The notes below the pieces were generated by a model. The model saw nothing but the letters and a program-made list of their open reading frames with translations. It made no database searches and was not told where the DNA came from. A stretch of DNA of 5,060 nt from contig JAUXGM010000149.1 of NCBI GenBank assembly GCA_030622125.1, positions 1 to 5,060 on the forward strand, written 5' to 3'. This DNA is from a bacterium. Lineage in GTDB: Bacteria > AUK180. The first letter of the stretch is position 1. Every line of letters starts with the position of its first letter. Below are positions 1 through 5,060 of the stretch, one piece after another. The position numbers and the translations under genes are program-made.

Positions 1-3000
1 ATGAATTCAATATATTATTTGTTGCCATACTGATTTCAATATTATTTTTTCCTCTTTTAATATCTATCTTATAGATATTTTTAATTACTGTAAAAATATC
101 ATCAATATTTTTTGAGCATTTAAGTAAAAGCGTATTATTCTTATAAACAATGGATTCTACATTCGCCTTCATTGCCGCTAATTTTATCCATTGGTAATCA
201 AAAAGCTCTATTACTTGCTCCGGAATATCTCCGTATCTTCTAATAAATCTTTCCTTTATCACTTGCAGTTTATCAAAAGAATTGCTGTTGATAATATCAA
301 GATAGAATCGCTGTCTCTCTATTTCTAACGGAACTATTTTTTTGGGGATATAGGGAAAAATTCCGATATCAATAAAAGTATCTTTTAAAATAACACCGTC
401 ATCTTTTATCTTTTCTATGACGCTTTCAAGTATCTTAAGATACATCCCGAGTCCTATATTGGAAATATTTCCCGATTGTTGTGTTCCAAAAAGATTTCCA
501 ATACCCCTTATTTCAAGATCTTTAACCGCAAGACGGTACCCGGAACCAAGCTCCTGAAATTCTTTAATTGCAGAAAGCCGTTTAACTGAATTCGGATTCA
601 TTTTTTCAAAAGAACTGATGAAGATATAAGCATACGCCTGTCTATATGACCTTCCAACCCTACCCCTTAATTGATAAAGCTGTGAAAGCCCGAAATTTTC
701 ACCGTTATTTATTATTATTGTATTAACATTCGGAAGATCAATGCCGATCTCGATTATTGTCGTGGAAATGAGAAGATCATAATAATTCTGTTGAAATAAT
801 TTCATTTTTCCCTCTATTTCTTTTGCGGGCACCTGTCCGTGAAGTATCGCGACCCGCAATTCAGGAACAAGTTTTAATATCATCTCCTTTATCTTTTCAA
901 GATCTTTTATATTGTTATGAACAAAAAATATCTGTCCTCCCCTTTTGATCTCTTCCAATATGGCAGATTTTAAAACATCTTTATTGAAAATACTTACGAT
1001 TGTTTTTATTCCCATTCGTCCTGGTGGAGGTGTTTCTATTATTGACATCGGTCTAATTTTTGATAGTGACATATACAAGGTTCTTGGAATTGGCGTAGCA
1101 CTCATTGTTAAGGTATCAACATTTCTTTTGACCAAACGAATCTTTTCCTTTGCTTTTACACCGAATCGCTGCTCTTCATCAACGATCAAAAGCCCAAGAT
1201 CATTAAATTCTACATCATCGGAAAGAATTCTGTGTGTTCCAATTACGATATTAATATCTCCATGTTTGATCCTTTTAATGATATCCTGTCTATTTTTGGG
1301 AGAAACGATCCTGGAAAGCATTGAAATAGATAGTCCATAGCGTTCAAACCTAAATTTGAATGTAATAAAATGCTGTTCACATAAAATAGTAGTAGGTGCT
1401 AAAACTGCAACCTGCTTACCATCAAAAACTGCTTTAAAAGCAGATCTCATCGCAACCTCTGTTTTGCCGAAACCGACATCACCAACAAGGAGACGGTCCA
1501 TTGGTTTTTCCAATTCCATATCCTGTTCTATCTCTTTGATGACCTTTTCCTGATCAATTGTTTCCTCATAAAGAAAATCATTTTCAAAGGATTTGTGAAG
1601 TTCATTATTTTTTGAAAAAGCATACCCTTTGGATATCTCTCTTTCAGCATAAAGATTGATAATTGAAAGTAACATTTTTTCCAAACTTTTTGCTGCTCTT
1701 GACTTTTTTGTTATCCATTTTTGAGATCTTAAGGAATCAAGAACCGGTTTATAAGTGCCGGCTGATATGTATTTGTGTACTTTGTGTAATCTGTCAATGG
1801 GTAGGTAAAGCCTTTCATTATTCTTATATTGAACTGTAAAAAAATCTCCGTGAAATTGAGCGATTTTTTTATTTTCTATTCCAAGAAACCTGCCGATACC
1901 GTAATCTTCATGAACAATAAAATCACCGATGGTTATACTTTTTAATTCATCATCTATCTCTTTTCTAAATCGATTTTCTTTTCTGTGAAGTCTTTTTTTA
2001 TTCCCAATCAAATCCCTTTCGGATACAAATACCAATCCATCGGTTTCATAAATGAAACCTTCATCTATATTTCCTTCTATAAAAAAAATGTGTGCTTTTT
2101 TCTTTATATTTTCAGTTACTTTAAGGACAATATCTTGAAGAACCCTTATACGGTTTGGATTTTCTATGAAAAACAAAATTGTATATTCTTTGTTTATCCA
2201 TGTCTCCATATTTTGTGAGAAAAGCTCTACATTATTCGAAAAATTGATAAGACGATAGGTGTTTATTATCATTTCATAATTCTGCATATCTATTAGAGAG
2301 TAGATCTTTAAGAAATTTCTTTTTTTTGCGAAAAGTTCGAATTTTTCTATTGGTTTATTTCTCTTTTCAAGTAAATTCTCGTTCATTAAGAATCTCAATC
2401 TTTCCACAGTATTCTCTATATTATTTATGATCATATTATCGGTTTTTTTATATATTGACATAAAATTTTTTGTTTTTTGAACATCTGAATTTTCCGGAAA
2501 AATAACATAGTTGGAAATAGACTTTATCCGCATCTGTTGAGATTGATCAAAAAAATAAATACTTTCAACCTCTTCATCGAACAATTCAATTCTTATGGGA
2601 TAATCCTCGCCATAAGGAAAGAAATCAATAACATCCCCGCGAATGCTGAACTCACCCATATCCCAAACATTATCCCTTCTGATATAATTATTATTTTCCA
2701 GATATGAAAAAAACATTTCAAGGTTTAGTTTGTTTTCTTTTTTTATGATAAATTCCTTGATTTGGTTCCTTGGCGGGATCATTGTAAAATTATATTCAAA
2801 CGGCATAATAATAAACTTATGTCTATCAAGGTTATATAATTTAAAAAGAGAACTTACCAATATGTTGCCGTTCGGATCGCTTTCTACGAAGAAAACATCA
2901 TCGTCATTAAATAGACAATTTAAGTAATTGTAACATTTTTCTGCATTTATTGGCGAATATGAAAAGAAAAAGGTATTTAATTTAGTGGTCTTGAATGACA

Positions 3001-3127
3001 AATAACTGTAAACGATATTTAAAAAAGAAGAGTTGGATGAAATTTTGTGTCCACCGACGGCTTTTTTTAAAAAAAATTTCAAAAACGCTTGATAACTTTT
3101 CTTTTTTTCTATAATTTTTTTAAACAT
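1..3127 (-). CDS. mfd: Mfd, transcription-repair coupling factor (C-terminal end cut by window edge)
   Basis: Mfd is a cytoplasmic SF2 DNA translocase that binds stalled RNA polymerase, pushes it off the lesion and recruits UvrA for nucleotide excision repair. The 1042 visible codons give the family order. A UvrB-like module contains GEFSIRG at residues 158-164; by recalled alignment, R163, R179 and F183 match the E. coli UvrA-contact residues R165, R181 and F185. The CarD-like polymerase-interacting domain starts near 398 (GDFIVHEDYGIGRF from 401). The helicase core shows Walker A GDVGFGKT (549-556), DEEQ (650-653), TMSATPIPRTL (674-684), EIGIDLPN (793-800) and LRGRVGR (820-826). The TRG motif spans about 849-886 (ELGSG, DLEIRG). 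A TRCF domain begins near 940. The extreme N-terminus is divergent, lysine-rich, lacks a P-loop and is about 45 residues shorter than in E. coli. ATG at 3127 is the only plausible start: the frame meets TAG at 3146-3148 upstream with no other start codon between. The frame is open at base 2; since E. coli Mfd has about 1150 residues, probably only some tens of codons are missing. Confidence 0.97.
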   Translation of the reverse strand, partial: MFKKIIEKKKSYQAFLKFFLKKAVGGHKISSNSSFLNIVYSYLSFKTTKLNTFFFSYSPINAEKCYNYLNCLFNDDDVFFVESDPNGNILVSSLFKLYNLDRHKFIIMPFEYNFTMIPPRNQIKEFIIKKENKLNLEMFFSYLENNNYIRRDNVWDMGEFSIRGDVIDFFPYGEDYPIRIELFDEEVESIYFFDQSQQMRIKSISNYVIFPENSDVQKTKNFMSIYKKTDNMIINNIENTVERLRFLMNENLLEKRNKPIEKFELFAKKRNFLKIYSLIDMQNYEMIINTYRLINFSNNVELFSQNMETWINKEYTILFFIENPNRIRVLQDIVLKVTENIKKKAHIFFIEGNIDEGFIYETDGLVFVSERDLIGNKKRLHRKENRFRKEIDDELKSITIGDFIVHEDYGIGRFLGIENKKIAQFHGDFFTVQYKNNERLYLPIDRLHKVHKYISAGTYKPVLDSLRSQKWITKKSRAAKSLEKMLLSIINLYAEREISKGYAFSKNNELHKSFENDFLYEETIDQEKVIKEIEQDMELEKPMDRLLVGDVGFGKTEVAMRSAFKAVFDGKQVAVLAPTTILCEQHFITFKFRFERYGLSISMLSRIVSPKNRQDIIKRIKHGDINIVIGTHRILSDDVEFNDLGLLIVDEEQRFGVKAKEKIRLVKRNVDTLTMSATPIPRTLYMSLSKIRPMSIIETPPPGRMGIKTIVSIFNKDVLKSAILEEIKRGGQIFFVHNNIKDLEKIKEMILKLVPELRVAILHGQVPAKEIEGKMKLFQQNYYDLLISTTIIEIGIDLPNVNTIIINNGENFGLSQLYQLRGRVGRSYRQAYAYIFISSFEKMNPNSVKRLSAIKEFQELGSGYRLAVKDLEIRGIGNLFGTQQSGNISNIGLGMYLKILESVIEKIKDDGVILKDTFIDIGIFPYIPKKIVPLEIERQRFYLDIINSNSFDKLQVIKERFIRRYGDIPEQVIELFDYQWIKLAAMKANVESIVYKNNTLLLKCSKNIDDIFTVIKNIYKIDIKRGKNNIEISMATNNILNS
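3061..3076 (-). repeat. T8-A7 homopolymer tract near the start of mfd
   Basis: In the coding strand, eight T are followed by seven A and then G, covering codons 18-22 of mfd (F-F-L-K-K). In the reading frame this forms three overlapping X-XXY-YYZ heptamers (T TTT TTA, T TTA AAA, A AAA AAA). Such tracts can cause replication slippage or ribosomal frameshifting. A -1 shift would reach TAA at 2982-2984 after 26 codons, and a +1 shift stops sooner, so either would truncate Mfd near residue 50 or earlier. In DNA this AT-rich the tract may be incidental. Confidence 0.5.
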
Positions 3128-3148
3128 CCGTATCTGCTTATCAACCTA
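3125..3148 (-). promoter_or_regulatory. recJ-like/mfd junction: tandem stop, weak ribosome binding site, probable translational coupling
   Basis: Read on the minus strand, the upstream gene ends in TGA (3141-3143), immediately followed by an in-frame TAA (3138-3140); the mfd ATG follows at 3127-3125. The 13 intervening bases hold no AGGAGG-like sequence. The nearest AGG lies about 18-20 bases before the ATG, overlapping the end of the upstream gene and farther than the usual spacing. The close spacing and missing ribosome binding site suggest that mfd is translated by coupling or reinitiation after the RecJ-like gene and shares its transcript. No terminator-like hairpin or separate promoter is visible here. 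Coupling is inference. Confidence 0.55.
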
Positions 3149-5060
3149 TTTTTCTTATATCAACAATATAGATTACATTTGAATCCTCATATTTTTTCAA
3201 CATTGGATTATATAGGATATTGTATTTTTCATTTACATCTAATTCATTAGCATAAGTCCCATTATAGGGAGAAATCCCATAAACTTTCGTGTTTCCCTTT
3301 TCCAATTCTAAAAAAAGTGATCTACCATCCTTTCCATATCGCCTAATTCCTTTTACTATAACATTTGTATCCAAATAGGTCGGTGCTTGTATTTGCTTTC
3401 CATAAGGTCCACAAAGTTTAACAAGTTTTTTTTCCGCTTCACCGATCTTATTTATTTCTAATATATCATCATAAAAGAGTTTTTTGGGTTCAAATTTTGA
3501 ATCAAAATGTTTAAACCATGCCTCAAATTTTTCTATGAATTGGGGTATTTTAAAGTTGTCTATCGTGAATCCGACCGCCTTGCCATGCCCGCCGAAAGTT
3601 CTAAAAAGATCGCCATTACTCTTAAAAAATTCTAAAATATTACCGTTTAAAAATCTGGATGAACCCGAAAGAGGATTATCCTGAATTAAAATAACCGTTG
3701 GAGCATCAATATTCTTTGTTAGTTCGGATGCTATTGCACCTTTCTTACCGGTAAATTTTTTATCTATAAGCATAACGCGTATCTTTCCATTCGGATTTAG
3801 GTTTCTTCCTACCTTTAATGCTTCTTTTGTTGAAGACCCCGTATATACTTTTCGTTTGAAGATATTTAATTTTTTAGTTTTATAAAATTTGTCGATTTCT
3901 TCATAATCTCCCGCCCTGTATTTTGAATTTAAAACAGGTATCAGTTTATCATAATTGTAATAGGAATTTATCAAAAGACCACTATACTTTGAATCTCCTA
4001 ATATTTCTGAAAATTCAAGGTATATATCTATTTTTCTCATAAATAGGTAATTTATGCCGTCTATCTTCATTCTATCGGAAAATATTGTAATGTAGTAAAT
4101 TAAAAGGGATTCATCTCTGGAAAAGGTTCTTAGATTATTCTCCTTTTTTAGAAGTTCTAAAAATAATCTGTAAAGTGCTCTTGTATCATTTTTCGCACGG
4201 TGGAATTTCCCATGATAGAGATTTAGAGAATTAACGATACTTCCAAGGGCATAGGAAGGTAGTCCTTTATAAAACCGTTTTGTCATAGTAAGGGTATCTA
4301 TTACATCATTCTGTGGTAGGGAAAGATCAAATCTTTGTAGATAATTTTTTATAAAGGAAAGATCAAAATTCGCATTATGAGCAACCAATGTACTACTGCC
4401 TATAAATTTAAGAAAATGCTTGATAACTTTTTGGGCATCTTTTCCGTTTTTATCAATTATATTGTTGTCTATTCCGGTAATCTCTTTTATTTTGCTGCTA
4501 ATTTTCTTATCGGTTTTCAAAAATGTCTCGAACCGTTCTGTGATCTCGCCGCCTTTGACCTTCAATGCAGAAATTTCAAGAATGTCATCTATCCCGGGGT
4601 TAAGTCCGGTTGTTTCAATATCTAAAATTATATAGGTCTTATCAAGATCCTTATATTGTAGCCGTTTAACCTCTCTTTGCAAAAGATAAACGAGGCCGGC
4701 GGCGGATGGATAACCACCACTTTTAAAATTTGGATAATAATAAACAACATTCGGAATTGCATAAAAATCCTGCATATGATGGTCCACAACCAATGCCTTA
4801 ACACCATTTTCTGCAAGATAATTTAAACCATCGGAGGAATTCTGTCCCATATCAAGAAAGATAACATTTTTATAGCCATCAGCTATAACCTTTTTCGCAT
4901 CTTTAACTTCAAAAAGCGGAATATTTTTCCAGAATTCCTTATAAAATATATTGTGGCTTTTAAAGCCCTCTTCATTAATAAGAGAAAGTATCTTCATAGC
5001 ACCATAGCCATCAAGATCACAGTCATACAACACCAATGTTTTTTCATCTTTTTTAAAAGC
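3141..5060 (-). CDS. recJ: RecJ-family DHH phosphoesterase with embedded DnaQ-type exonuclease domain (N-terminus cut by window edge)
   Basis: RecJ-type proteins are metal-dependent 5'-3' single-strand DNA exonucleases acting in recombination and repair. Residues are numbered from the TTG at 5036. DHH motif I is DCDLDG (5-10), motif II FLDMG (60-64, D62), motif III VVDHH (83-87) and motif IV YPSAAG (109-114). A DEDDh exonuclease domain interrupts at about 134-297. DHH then resumes with IFSDR (318-322, D321), followed by DHHA1 (SGSSR 457-461, FGGHGKAVGF 481-490) and an OB-like end starting at GPYGKQIQAP (543-552). Without the insert, the visible length fits a RecJ core. The frame stays open to base 5060 with eight more codons (AFKKDEKT) that fit the strand leading into motif I, so the TTG is probably not the start; by comparison with RecJ, perhaps 50-80 residues are missing. 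It ends in TGA followed by in-frame TAA, 13 bases before mfd. RecJ-superfamily membership is firm, but motif V reads SDR rather than the usual bacterial GTIAD, so a divergent RecJ-like subfamily is possible. The substrate is inferred, not shown. Confidence 0.88.
   Translation of the reverse strand, partial: AFKKDEKTLVLYDCDLDGYGAMKILSLINEEGFKSHNIFYKEFWKNIPLFEVKDAKKVIADGYKNVIFLDMGQNSSDGLNYLAENGVKALVVDHHMQDFYAIPNVVYYYPNFKSGGYPSAAGLVYLLQREVKRLQYKDLDKTYIILDIETTGLNPGIDDILEISALKVKGGEITERFETFLKTDKKISSKIKEITGIDNNIIDKNGKDAQKVIKHFLKFIGSSTLVAHNANFDLSFIKNYLQRFDLSLPQNDVIDTLTMTKRFYKGLPSYALGSIVNSLNLYHGKFHRAKNDTRALYRLFLELLKKENNLRTFSRDESLLIYYITIFSDRMKIDGINYLFMRKIDIYLEFSEILGDSKYSGLLINSYYNYDKLIPVLNSKYRAGDYEEIDKFYKTKKLNIFKRKVYTGSSTKEALKVGRNLNPNGKIRVMLIDKKFTGKKGAIASELTKNIDAPTVILIQDNPLSGSSRFLNGNILEFFKSNGDLFRTFGGHGKAVGFTIDNFKIPQFIEKFEAWFKHFDSKFEPKKLFYDDILEINKIGEAEKKLVKLCGPYGKQIQAPTYLDTNVIVKGIRRYGKDGRSLFLELEKGNTKVYGISPYNGTYANELDVNEKYNILYNPMLKKYEDSNVIYIVDIRKIG
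4146..4637 (-). other. DnaQ-like DEDDh 3'-5' exonuclease domain inserted in the DHH domain
   Basis: This segment encodes residues 134-297 of the RecJ-like protein (numbered from the TTG at 5036). It has all three exonuclease motifs: ExoI DIETTG (139-144, D139 and E141), ExoII HNANFD (220-225, D225) and ExoIII HRAKND (279-284, H279 and D284). That is the complete DEDDh catalytic set known from DnaQ, PolC and DinG exonuclease domains. The run through TGID and VAHNANFD most resembles the PolC/DinG type. The domain sits between the helix after DHH motif IV (GLVYLLQREV, ending at 123) and the strand/helix holding D321. It is therefore nested inside the DHH fold, not fused at an end. The frame is continuous on both sides and base composition looks like the host gene, so there is no sign of recent insertion or assembly error. 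Confidence 0.93.

Follow-up and report, generated by a model that had tools for sequence, protein, structure and literature searches.

RecJ nucleases of bacteria (TIGR00644; structures from S. aureus, 8y30, D. radiodurans, 5f54-5f56, and T. thermophilus, 2zxo) share the domain order DHH-DHHA1-OB and a single fold. Exonucleases of the DnaQ, or DEDDh, type are found attached to other enzymes. PolC carries its DnaQ domain inside another metal-enzyme fold, PHP; S. aureus DinG (8zef, 9ii8) and Cas2-DEDDh (8fy9) have the same DEDDh domain joined, as an N- or C-terminal fusion, to another nucleic-acid enzyme. NanoRNases form two families, the DHH-DHHA1 enzymes NrnA and NrnB and the DEDDh enzyme Orn, each using one of the two folds, separately, for oligonucleotide clearing.

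The window analysed here, a whole contig (C35) of 5060 bp from a draft genome of 2.08 Mb, encodes a protein in which the two folds are combined: a nuclease of RecJ descent, with DHH, DHHA1 and OB domains, that holds a complete PolC/DnaQ-like DEDDh domain between DHH motifs III and IV. With bacterial RecJ it shares domain order and fold (Z 19-20), all metal ligands, the DHH triad, Arg280, Ser371 (in the window), Arg373 and His397; it and its nested relatives differ by the DnaQ insert of about 170 aa between motifs III and IV and by the lack of Arg109 and of the aromatic residue at Tyr80. Unlike PolC, whose host fold is PHP plus polymerase and not DHH, nested RecJ has no polymerase; unlike the DnaQ-DinG and Cas2-DEDDh fusions, its exonuclease sits within the catalytic fold of the partner; and unlike NrnA/NrnB and Orn, which have neither an OB domain nor such a fusion, it has both. 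In the literature searched, i.e. that outside subscription journals, we found no RecJ with a nested DnaQ and no link between RecJ and nucleoside phosphorylases, and no NCBIfam model for the DHH/DnaQ combination appeared among the best matches. The opinion of the first-pass annotation that this order is not a standard described RecJ architecture agrees with that search, and we propose that the nested RecJ-DnaQ proteins form an undescribed RecJ subfamily.

Domain layout and catalytic residues

The nested gene occupies positions 3141..5060 of the minus strand, its 5' end being cut by the contig end, and its visible product has 639 residues. The N-terminal part of the DHH domain (residues 1-136, 4653..5060, minus strand; Pfam DHH on residues 9-141) carries motif I (D13/D15/D17), motif II (D70) and motif III (D93-H94-H95). 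It is followed by the inserted DnaQ/DEDDh exonuclease (residues 137-312, 4125..4652, minus strand), recognised as Pfam RNase_T on residues 144-300 (E 9e-31, 108 bits against a cut-off of 24) and bearing the complete DEDDh set D147, E149, D233, H287 and D292. Behind the insert come the C-terminal part of the DHH domain with a helical linker (residues 313-425, 3786..4124, minus strand), containing motif IV, D329 (codon 4074-4076), and motif V, N378/R382; then the DHHA1 domain (residues 426-520, 3501..3785, minus strand), with motif VI, S467/R469, and motif VII, GGH 490-492; and finally the RecJ OB domain (residues 531-637, 3150..3470, minus strand). Pfam finds DHHA1 on residues 438-517 with 24.7 bits, slightly below the cut-off of 25.9, and RecJ_OB on residues 531-627 with 34.3 bits for a cut-off of 27.

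All six RecJ metal ligands are thus present and are split by the insert, five before it (D13, D15, D17, D70, H94) and the sixth, D329, after. The motif scheme and residue roles are those published for D. radiodurans (Dra) RecJ (eLife 14294 / PMC4846377), in which numbering motifs I-III lie ahead of the insert and IV-VII behind, D329 being Dra Asp223. The aspartate seen after the insert at first pass is real, but it belongs to published motif IV and not to "motif V", and the motifs that precede are I-III, so that the earlier numbering was off by one; likewise the insert placed at 4146-4637 does exist, with best limits slightly wider, at 4125-4652. The main claim, that of a complete DnaQ domain nested within a RecJ-type DHH domain, is borne out by the Pfam domains, the residues and the AlphaFold2 model. 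In Dra numbering the ligands D79, D81, D83, D135, H159 and D223, together with D158/H160, are kept in the window and in all 18 full nested proteins known to us, and both catalytic sets are intact in 17 of these; the GGH motif and Arg373 are conserved in the DHHA1 domain of the window. Against TIGR00644, the curated RecJ equivalog model (cut-off 396.9 bits), the window protein scores 119.5 bits, so that we class it as derived from RecJ rather than as a RecJ equivalog; its nested relatives L024 and L025 pass that cut-off with 552 and 533 bits.

Gene, contig and true N-terminus

Reading the minus strand, the nested recJ runs from the contig end at 5060 to its stop at 3141, and is followed by mfd, the transcription-repair coupling factor (2..3127, minus strand; Pfam UvrB_inter, CarD_TRCF_RID, DEAD, Helicase_C, TRCF), which adjoins the nested gene in three genomes of the same family too (G001, G003, G004). 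The visible TTG is a false start, since the gene continues beyond the contig end: a further 72 N-terminal residues are encoded on contig C189 of the same genome. The full-length protein would have about 711 aa, like its same-family orthologs (G001-G004), which are uninterrupted and measure 711-730 aa. The end of C189 (L003 6843-7009) and that of the window share 167 bp, with 3 mismatches, inside the nested recJ; the assembly probably broke there because of strain variation. A misassembly, a chimera or a chance arrangement is ruled out, as the same junction, at one insertion site, recurs in open frames in many independent assemblies (18 proteins).

Upstream of the nested recJ, C189 carries M42 peptidase genes and a purine nucleoside phosphorylase (PNP) gene which overlaps the recJ start by a few bases. 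Three M42-type peptidase genes stand in tandem (L003 2752-5834) ahead of PNP and recJ, and a similar cluster is seen in STE_202 (L024 1227-4301), an unclassified MAG of the same class as the window.

Predicted fold

The AlphaFold2 model (pLDDT 80, pTM 0.68) was computed from a 25-row alignment and replaces an earlier one, built with 8 rows, that was poor around motif IV. Plain RecJ rows were included in the input, which means that homology informed the prediction, and confidence is low at residues 352-364 and 398-409. Its top Foldseek matches are RecJ structures. S. aureus RecJ (8y30) aligns with it at Z 19.9 over 449 residues (3.8 A), spanning 1..639, and the Dra RecJ-DNA complex (5f55) at Z 19.0 over 438 residues. 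Given that about 176 of the 639 residues are insert and that 449 are aligned, nearly all of the sequence outside the insert adopts the predicted RecJ fold. Model residues 136-312 match PolC (9qpc), DinG and DnaQ at Z 25, and the PolC exonuclease is the closest solved DEDDh domain (36-40% identity with 2p1j, from Thermotoga).

The first-pass annotation had supposed an insertion in a surface loop, with the residues behind it completing the DHH fold, and the alignment of the model to RecJ around the insert supports both. It had also suggested looking in a predicted structure for DHH halves that pack together and for an exonuclease forming its own lobe; this is the arrangement that the AlphaFold2 model predicts.

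Distribution and origin of the nested form

The 18 nested RecJs are spread over about seven lineages of phylum rank, namely the window's phylum, Elusimicrobiota, Brevinematales (Spirochaetota), Muiribacteriota, Lindow(ii)bacteriota and two further phyla. A scan of GTDB genomes gave, among the matches listed, STE_202, two Elusimicrobia, Brevinematales Ch60, Ca. Muiribacteriota and two Lindowbacteria. In addition, 386 genomes were searched with a profile that spans the DHH/DnaQ junction, and 16 nested proteins matched at E < 1e-65, clearly separated from the DnaQ-only matches. One of the further phyla has the nested form in both of its two genomes, another in 5 of 16. Most of the genomes with a nested copy have no other RecJ_OB protein; these are seven genomes from four lineages (G006, G023, G170, G035, G182, G317, G074). 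The nuclease had been thought at first pass to be possibly lineage-specific, which this spread over about seven phylum-level lineages contradicts; an invention limited to the window's family is ruled out by the same nested protein in other phyla. We also reject a mobile or phage origin: no nested form was seen among the RecJ loci of viral contigs (27 loci, none seen with a DnaQ motif), nor among the phage and plasmid matches listed, where the annotated ones are PolC or exonuclease genes. Two of the viral-contig RecJ open frames, L219 (1373 aa) and L234 (775 aa), far exceed the usual 570 aa; they too are without a DnaQ motif.

In 18 of 18 full nested proteins the insert, of 144-171 aa, is found at one site: a loop, bounded by the helix that follows "GVAFKL" and the one that runs into "GTIAD", which in plain RecJs is short and of variable length. 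In an unrooted core tree of the 18 nested and 44 plain RecJs, from which the insert columns were removed, one branch parts nested from plain proteins with 100/99 support, and is present in 100% of bootstrap trees. These sequence data are consistent with a single insertion event followed by descent and/or transfer. The tree of the DnaQ inserts themselves (172 columns) has little signal and neither recovers nor rejects one clade (AU p 0.25). In that tree a weak grouping joins the window-family insert to two Clostridiales proteins, L045:5641-6558 and L084:5485-6537, which by eye resemble Cas2-DnaQ fusions; L084 lies beside CRISPR-like repeats.

One member departs from the others in its insert: in Elusimicrobia RIFOXYA2_FULL_39_19 (L029:5599-7749) the DnaQ site shows D->N and H->K changes and about 25 aa are lost, the RecJ site being intact. 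Judged from its residues this nested DnaQ is a decaying insert, and its broken site suggests that an enzymatically active insert is not required in every member.

Two RecJ copies in the window's family

The window's family carries two RecJs, a plain copy of 540-573 aa, which groups with the plain RecJs in the tree, and the nested copy, whose branch there measures about 5 changes per column. In STE_202, from a sister family, the genes leading up to RecJ follow the same order—three M42 peptidases, PNP, RecJ—and the nested RecJ is canonical. As this order is shared, the window gene is most likely a fast-diverged ortholog at the ancestral M42 peptidase-PNP locus. We infer that the plain RecJ took over the housekeeping role in this family, the nested copy having probably specialised after its very fast divergence.

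The end-binding pocket

Columns that part nested from plain RecJs were picked by comparing their alignments, and mapped on Dra RecJ through the alignment with 5f54. The position of Dra Arg109 is an arginine in 44 of 44 plain RecJs and in none of the 18 nested ones, whose canonical members have the surrounding loop shortened. At the Tyr80 position an aromatic residue is found in 43/44 plain against 0/18 nested proteins (mostly Arg/Lys, otherwise Ser or Cys), and at that of Arg274 an arginine in 38/44 against 1/18. Arg280, Arg373 and His397 are unchanged throughout, and Arg280, Ser371 and Arg373 are present in the window. In Dra RecJ, Arg109 is a ligand of the terminal 5'-phosphate and Tyr80 stacks on the first base; kcat/Km falls from 17.1 to 1.6 in R109A and to 1.1 in Y80A, about 10- and 15-fold (PMC4846377). 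The terminal 5'-phosphate pocket (Arg109, Arg280, Ser371, Arg373) is thus incomplete in nested RecJs, Arg109 being the missing member. Two readings suit these residue identities: a weaker dependence of the nested enzymes on 5'-phosphate ends, or a takeover of the Arg109 role by the basic residue at position 80.

The window's family has gone further: it also lacks Tyr114, reported to exclude ribose in Dra RecJ (PMC4846377), and the base-stacking positions Val224/Phe269, while most nested members outside this family keep Tyr/His114 and the OB domain. In the nested RecJs of this family (L005, L007, L008, L276-L279 and the window) the EGYGL loop, with Tyr114, and the ENR arginine, both nearly invariant elsewhere, are missing, and all metal ligands are kept.

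Gene neighbourhood

Nucleoside phosphorylase genes adjoin the nested gene co-directionally in 15 of 18 cases. The neighbour is PNP in the window's family and STE_202; PNP and a pyrimidine-nucleoside phosphorylase (PyNP) in Elusimicrobia L025, G215, G074, G219, G348 and G078; MTAP and a PfkB kinase in L029; and in Lindowbacteria the order is PNP-PyNP-RecJ-MTAP, with a cytidine deaminase nearby. Phosphopentomutase-like genes occur at four nested loci. The Brevinematales and Muiribacteriota nested loci have no phosphorylase neighbour; in the former (L026:4661-5569) an aspartate-carbamoyltransferase-like gene, recognised by eye, stands directly upstream.

The choice of neighbour families was based on the first loci, and these families recurred at six of six loci not used for it (G182, G215, G074, G219, G348, G078). 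For the genomes with a plain RecJ, whose recJ-phosphorylase distances were read by hand from two tables, a PF01048 gene lies within 8 kb in 1 of 49 (G036, at 3.6 kb, in a sensitive Pfam search); PF01048-type genes exist in 57 of the 60 genomes surveyed. The association of phosphorylases with nested versus plain RecJ gives a Fisher p of 4e-11 by locus and of 5e-5 by lineage. Although the genes around nested RecJ are arranged differently from lineage to lineage, phosphorylases are still adjacent in five of the seven. This is evidence for an old, retained recJ-phosphorylase association, not a proof that the insert caused it: the nested proteins form a single clade, within which the link to the operon and the altered pocket could have been passed on jointly.

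Discussion

The reading that we prefer, with a probability of about one half, makes the nested RecJ a two-active-site single-strand nuclease tied to nucleic-acid salvage, which would also serve repair where it is the sole RecJ and whose copy in the window's family would be specialised. On one polypeptide the DHH site would act from 5' ends and the DnaQ site from 3' ends, so that single-stranded DNA or short oligonucleotides would be digested from both ends to mononucleotides; the end pocket would be remodelled, perhaps becoming less dependent on the 5'-phosphate, and the products would enter salvage and phosphorolysis through PNP, PyNP, MTAP, phosphopentomutase and cytidine deaminase. Where no other RecJ exists, the nested one would perform the repair work of RecJ as well; its main distinctive role would probably remain nucleic-acid turnover into salvage and phosphorolysis. 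The idea may be pushed further, to a RecJ subfamily converted from a 5'-phosphate-anchored repair exonuclease into a two-ended scavenger feeding the co-encoded phosphorylases, the plain RecJ of the window's family covering repair and leaving the nested copy free to specialise; in this strong form it is tentative, and we would lean against it. An Arg/Lys at the position of the lost aromatic might bind phosphate and so restore the pocket, which counts against the salvage reading, as do the Brevinematales and Muiribacteriota loci with no phosphorylase neighbour and the broken DnaQ site of L029.

The nested protein could instead be mainly a DNA-repair nuclease, a RecJ provided with a 3'->5' partner and able to excise from either side of a nick or gap in mismatch repair or recombination, its nucleoside neighbours being merely an inherited gene order. 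In E. coli mismatch repair, single-strand exonucleases of both polarities are redundant, which can be counted in favour of this view; so can mfd, directly downstream in the window's family, which points towards repair and against salvage, and the seven genomes in which no other RecJ exists, where the nested copy must cover the RecJ housekeeping. We nevertheless hold it less likely as the main role, because the phosphorylases stay adjacent despite the shuffled gene order, because the end-binding pocket is unlike that of repair RecJs, and because Exonuclease VII (XseA) is present in 16 of 16 nested genomes tested, so that a dual-polarity enzyme is not missing. The same XseA count leads us to reject the lack of exonuclease VII as the reason for the fusion. 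It is a good deal less probable that we are dealing with a two-ended nano-nuclease for short oligonucleotides, RNA included. The clade-wide loss of the Arg109/Tyr80 anchors and the further losses of the window's family (Tyr114, Val224/Phe269) would suit such an enzyme, as would the absence of any other RNase_T domain, and hence of a recognisable Orn, from 7 of 16 nested genomes; but a third of the comparison genomes also have no RNase_T gene, and the Tyr/His114 and OB domain kept by most members outside the window's family do not fit.

Two further views concern the DnaQ lobe. That it has no catalysis of its own and serves the RecJ part as a holding or regulatory domain might be read from L029, where two DEDDh residues and about 25 aa of the insert are gone and the rest is kept; this is very improbable for the subfamily, as all five DEDDh residues are intact in the other 17 of the 18 proteins, which across the clade argues for selection on DnaQ catalysis. 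That it is a replicative proofreader replacing a missing epsilon subunit was considered because the nested domain is the only RNase_T found in seven genomes (G000, G002, G003, G006, G023, G170, G219). We reject this candidate, whose chance appears negligible: the PHP metal-binding motifs of DnaE are kept in 13 of 13 nested genomes checked, so that PHP proofreading is available and that of a nested DnaQ is not needed, and RNase_T is wholly absent from 20 of the 60 genomes surveyed, so that its lack is ordinary.

A catalytic fold interrupted by a whole second nuclease, its metal site split on either side, is rare. Here such a fold appears to have arisen once and then, in several bacterial lineages, to have done duty as the only RecJ. 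The loss of the pocket together with the salvage neighbourhood offers a way to test a role of the RecJ family in nucleic-acid recycling, and a gene annotated "RecJ" may encode an enzyme with a different end chemistry.
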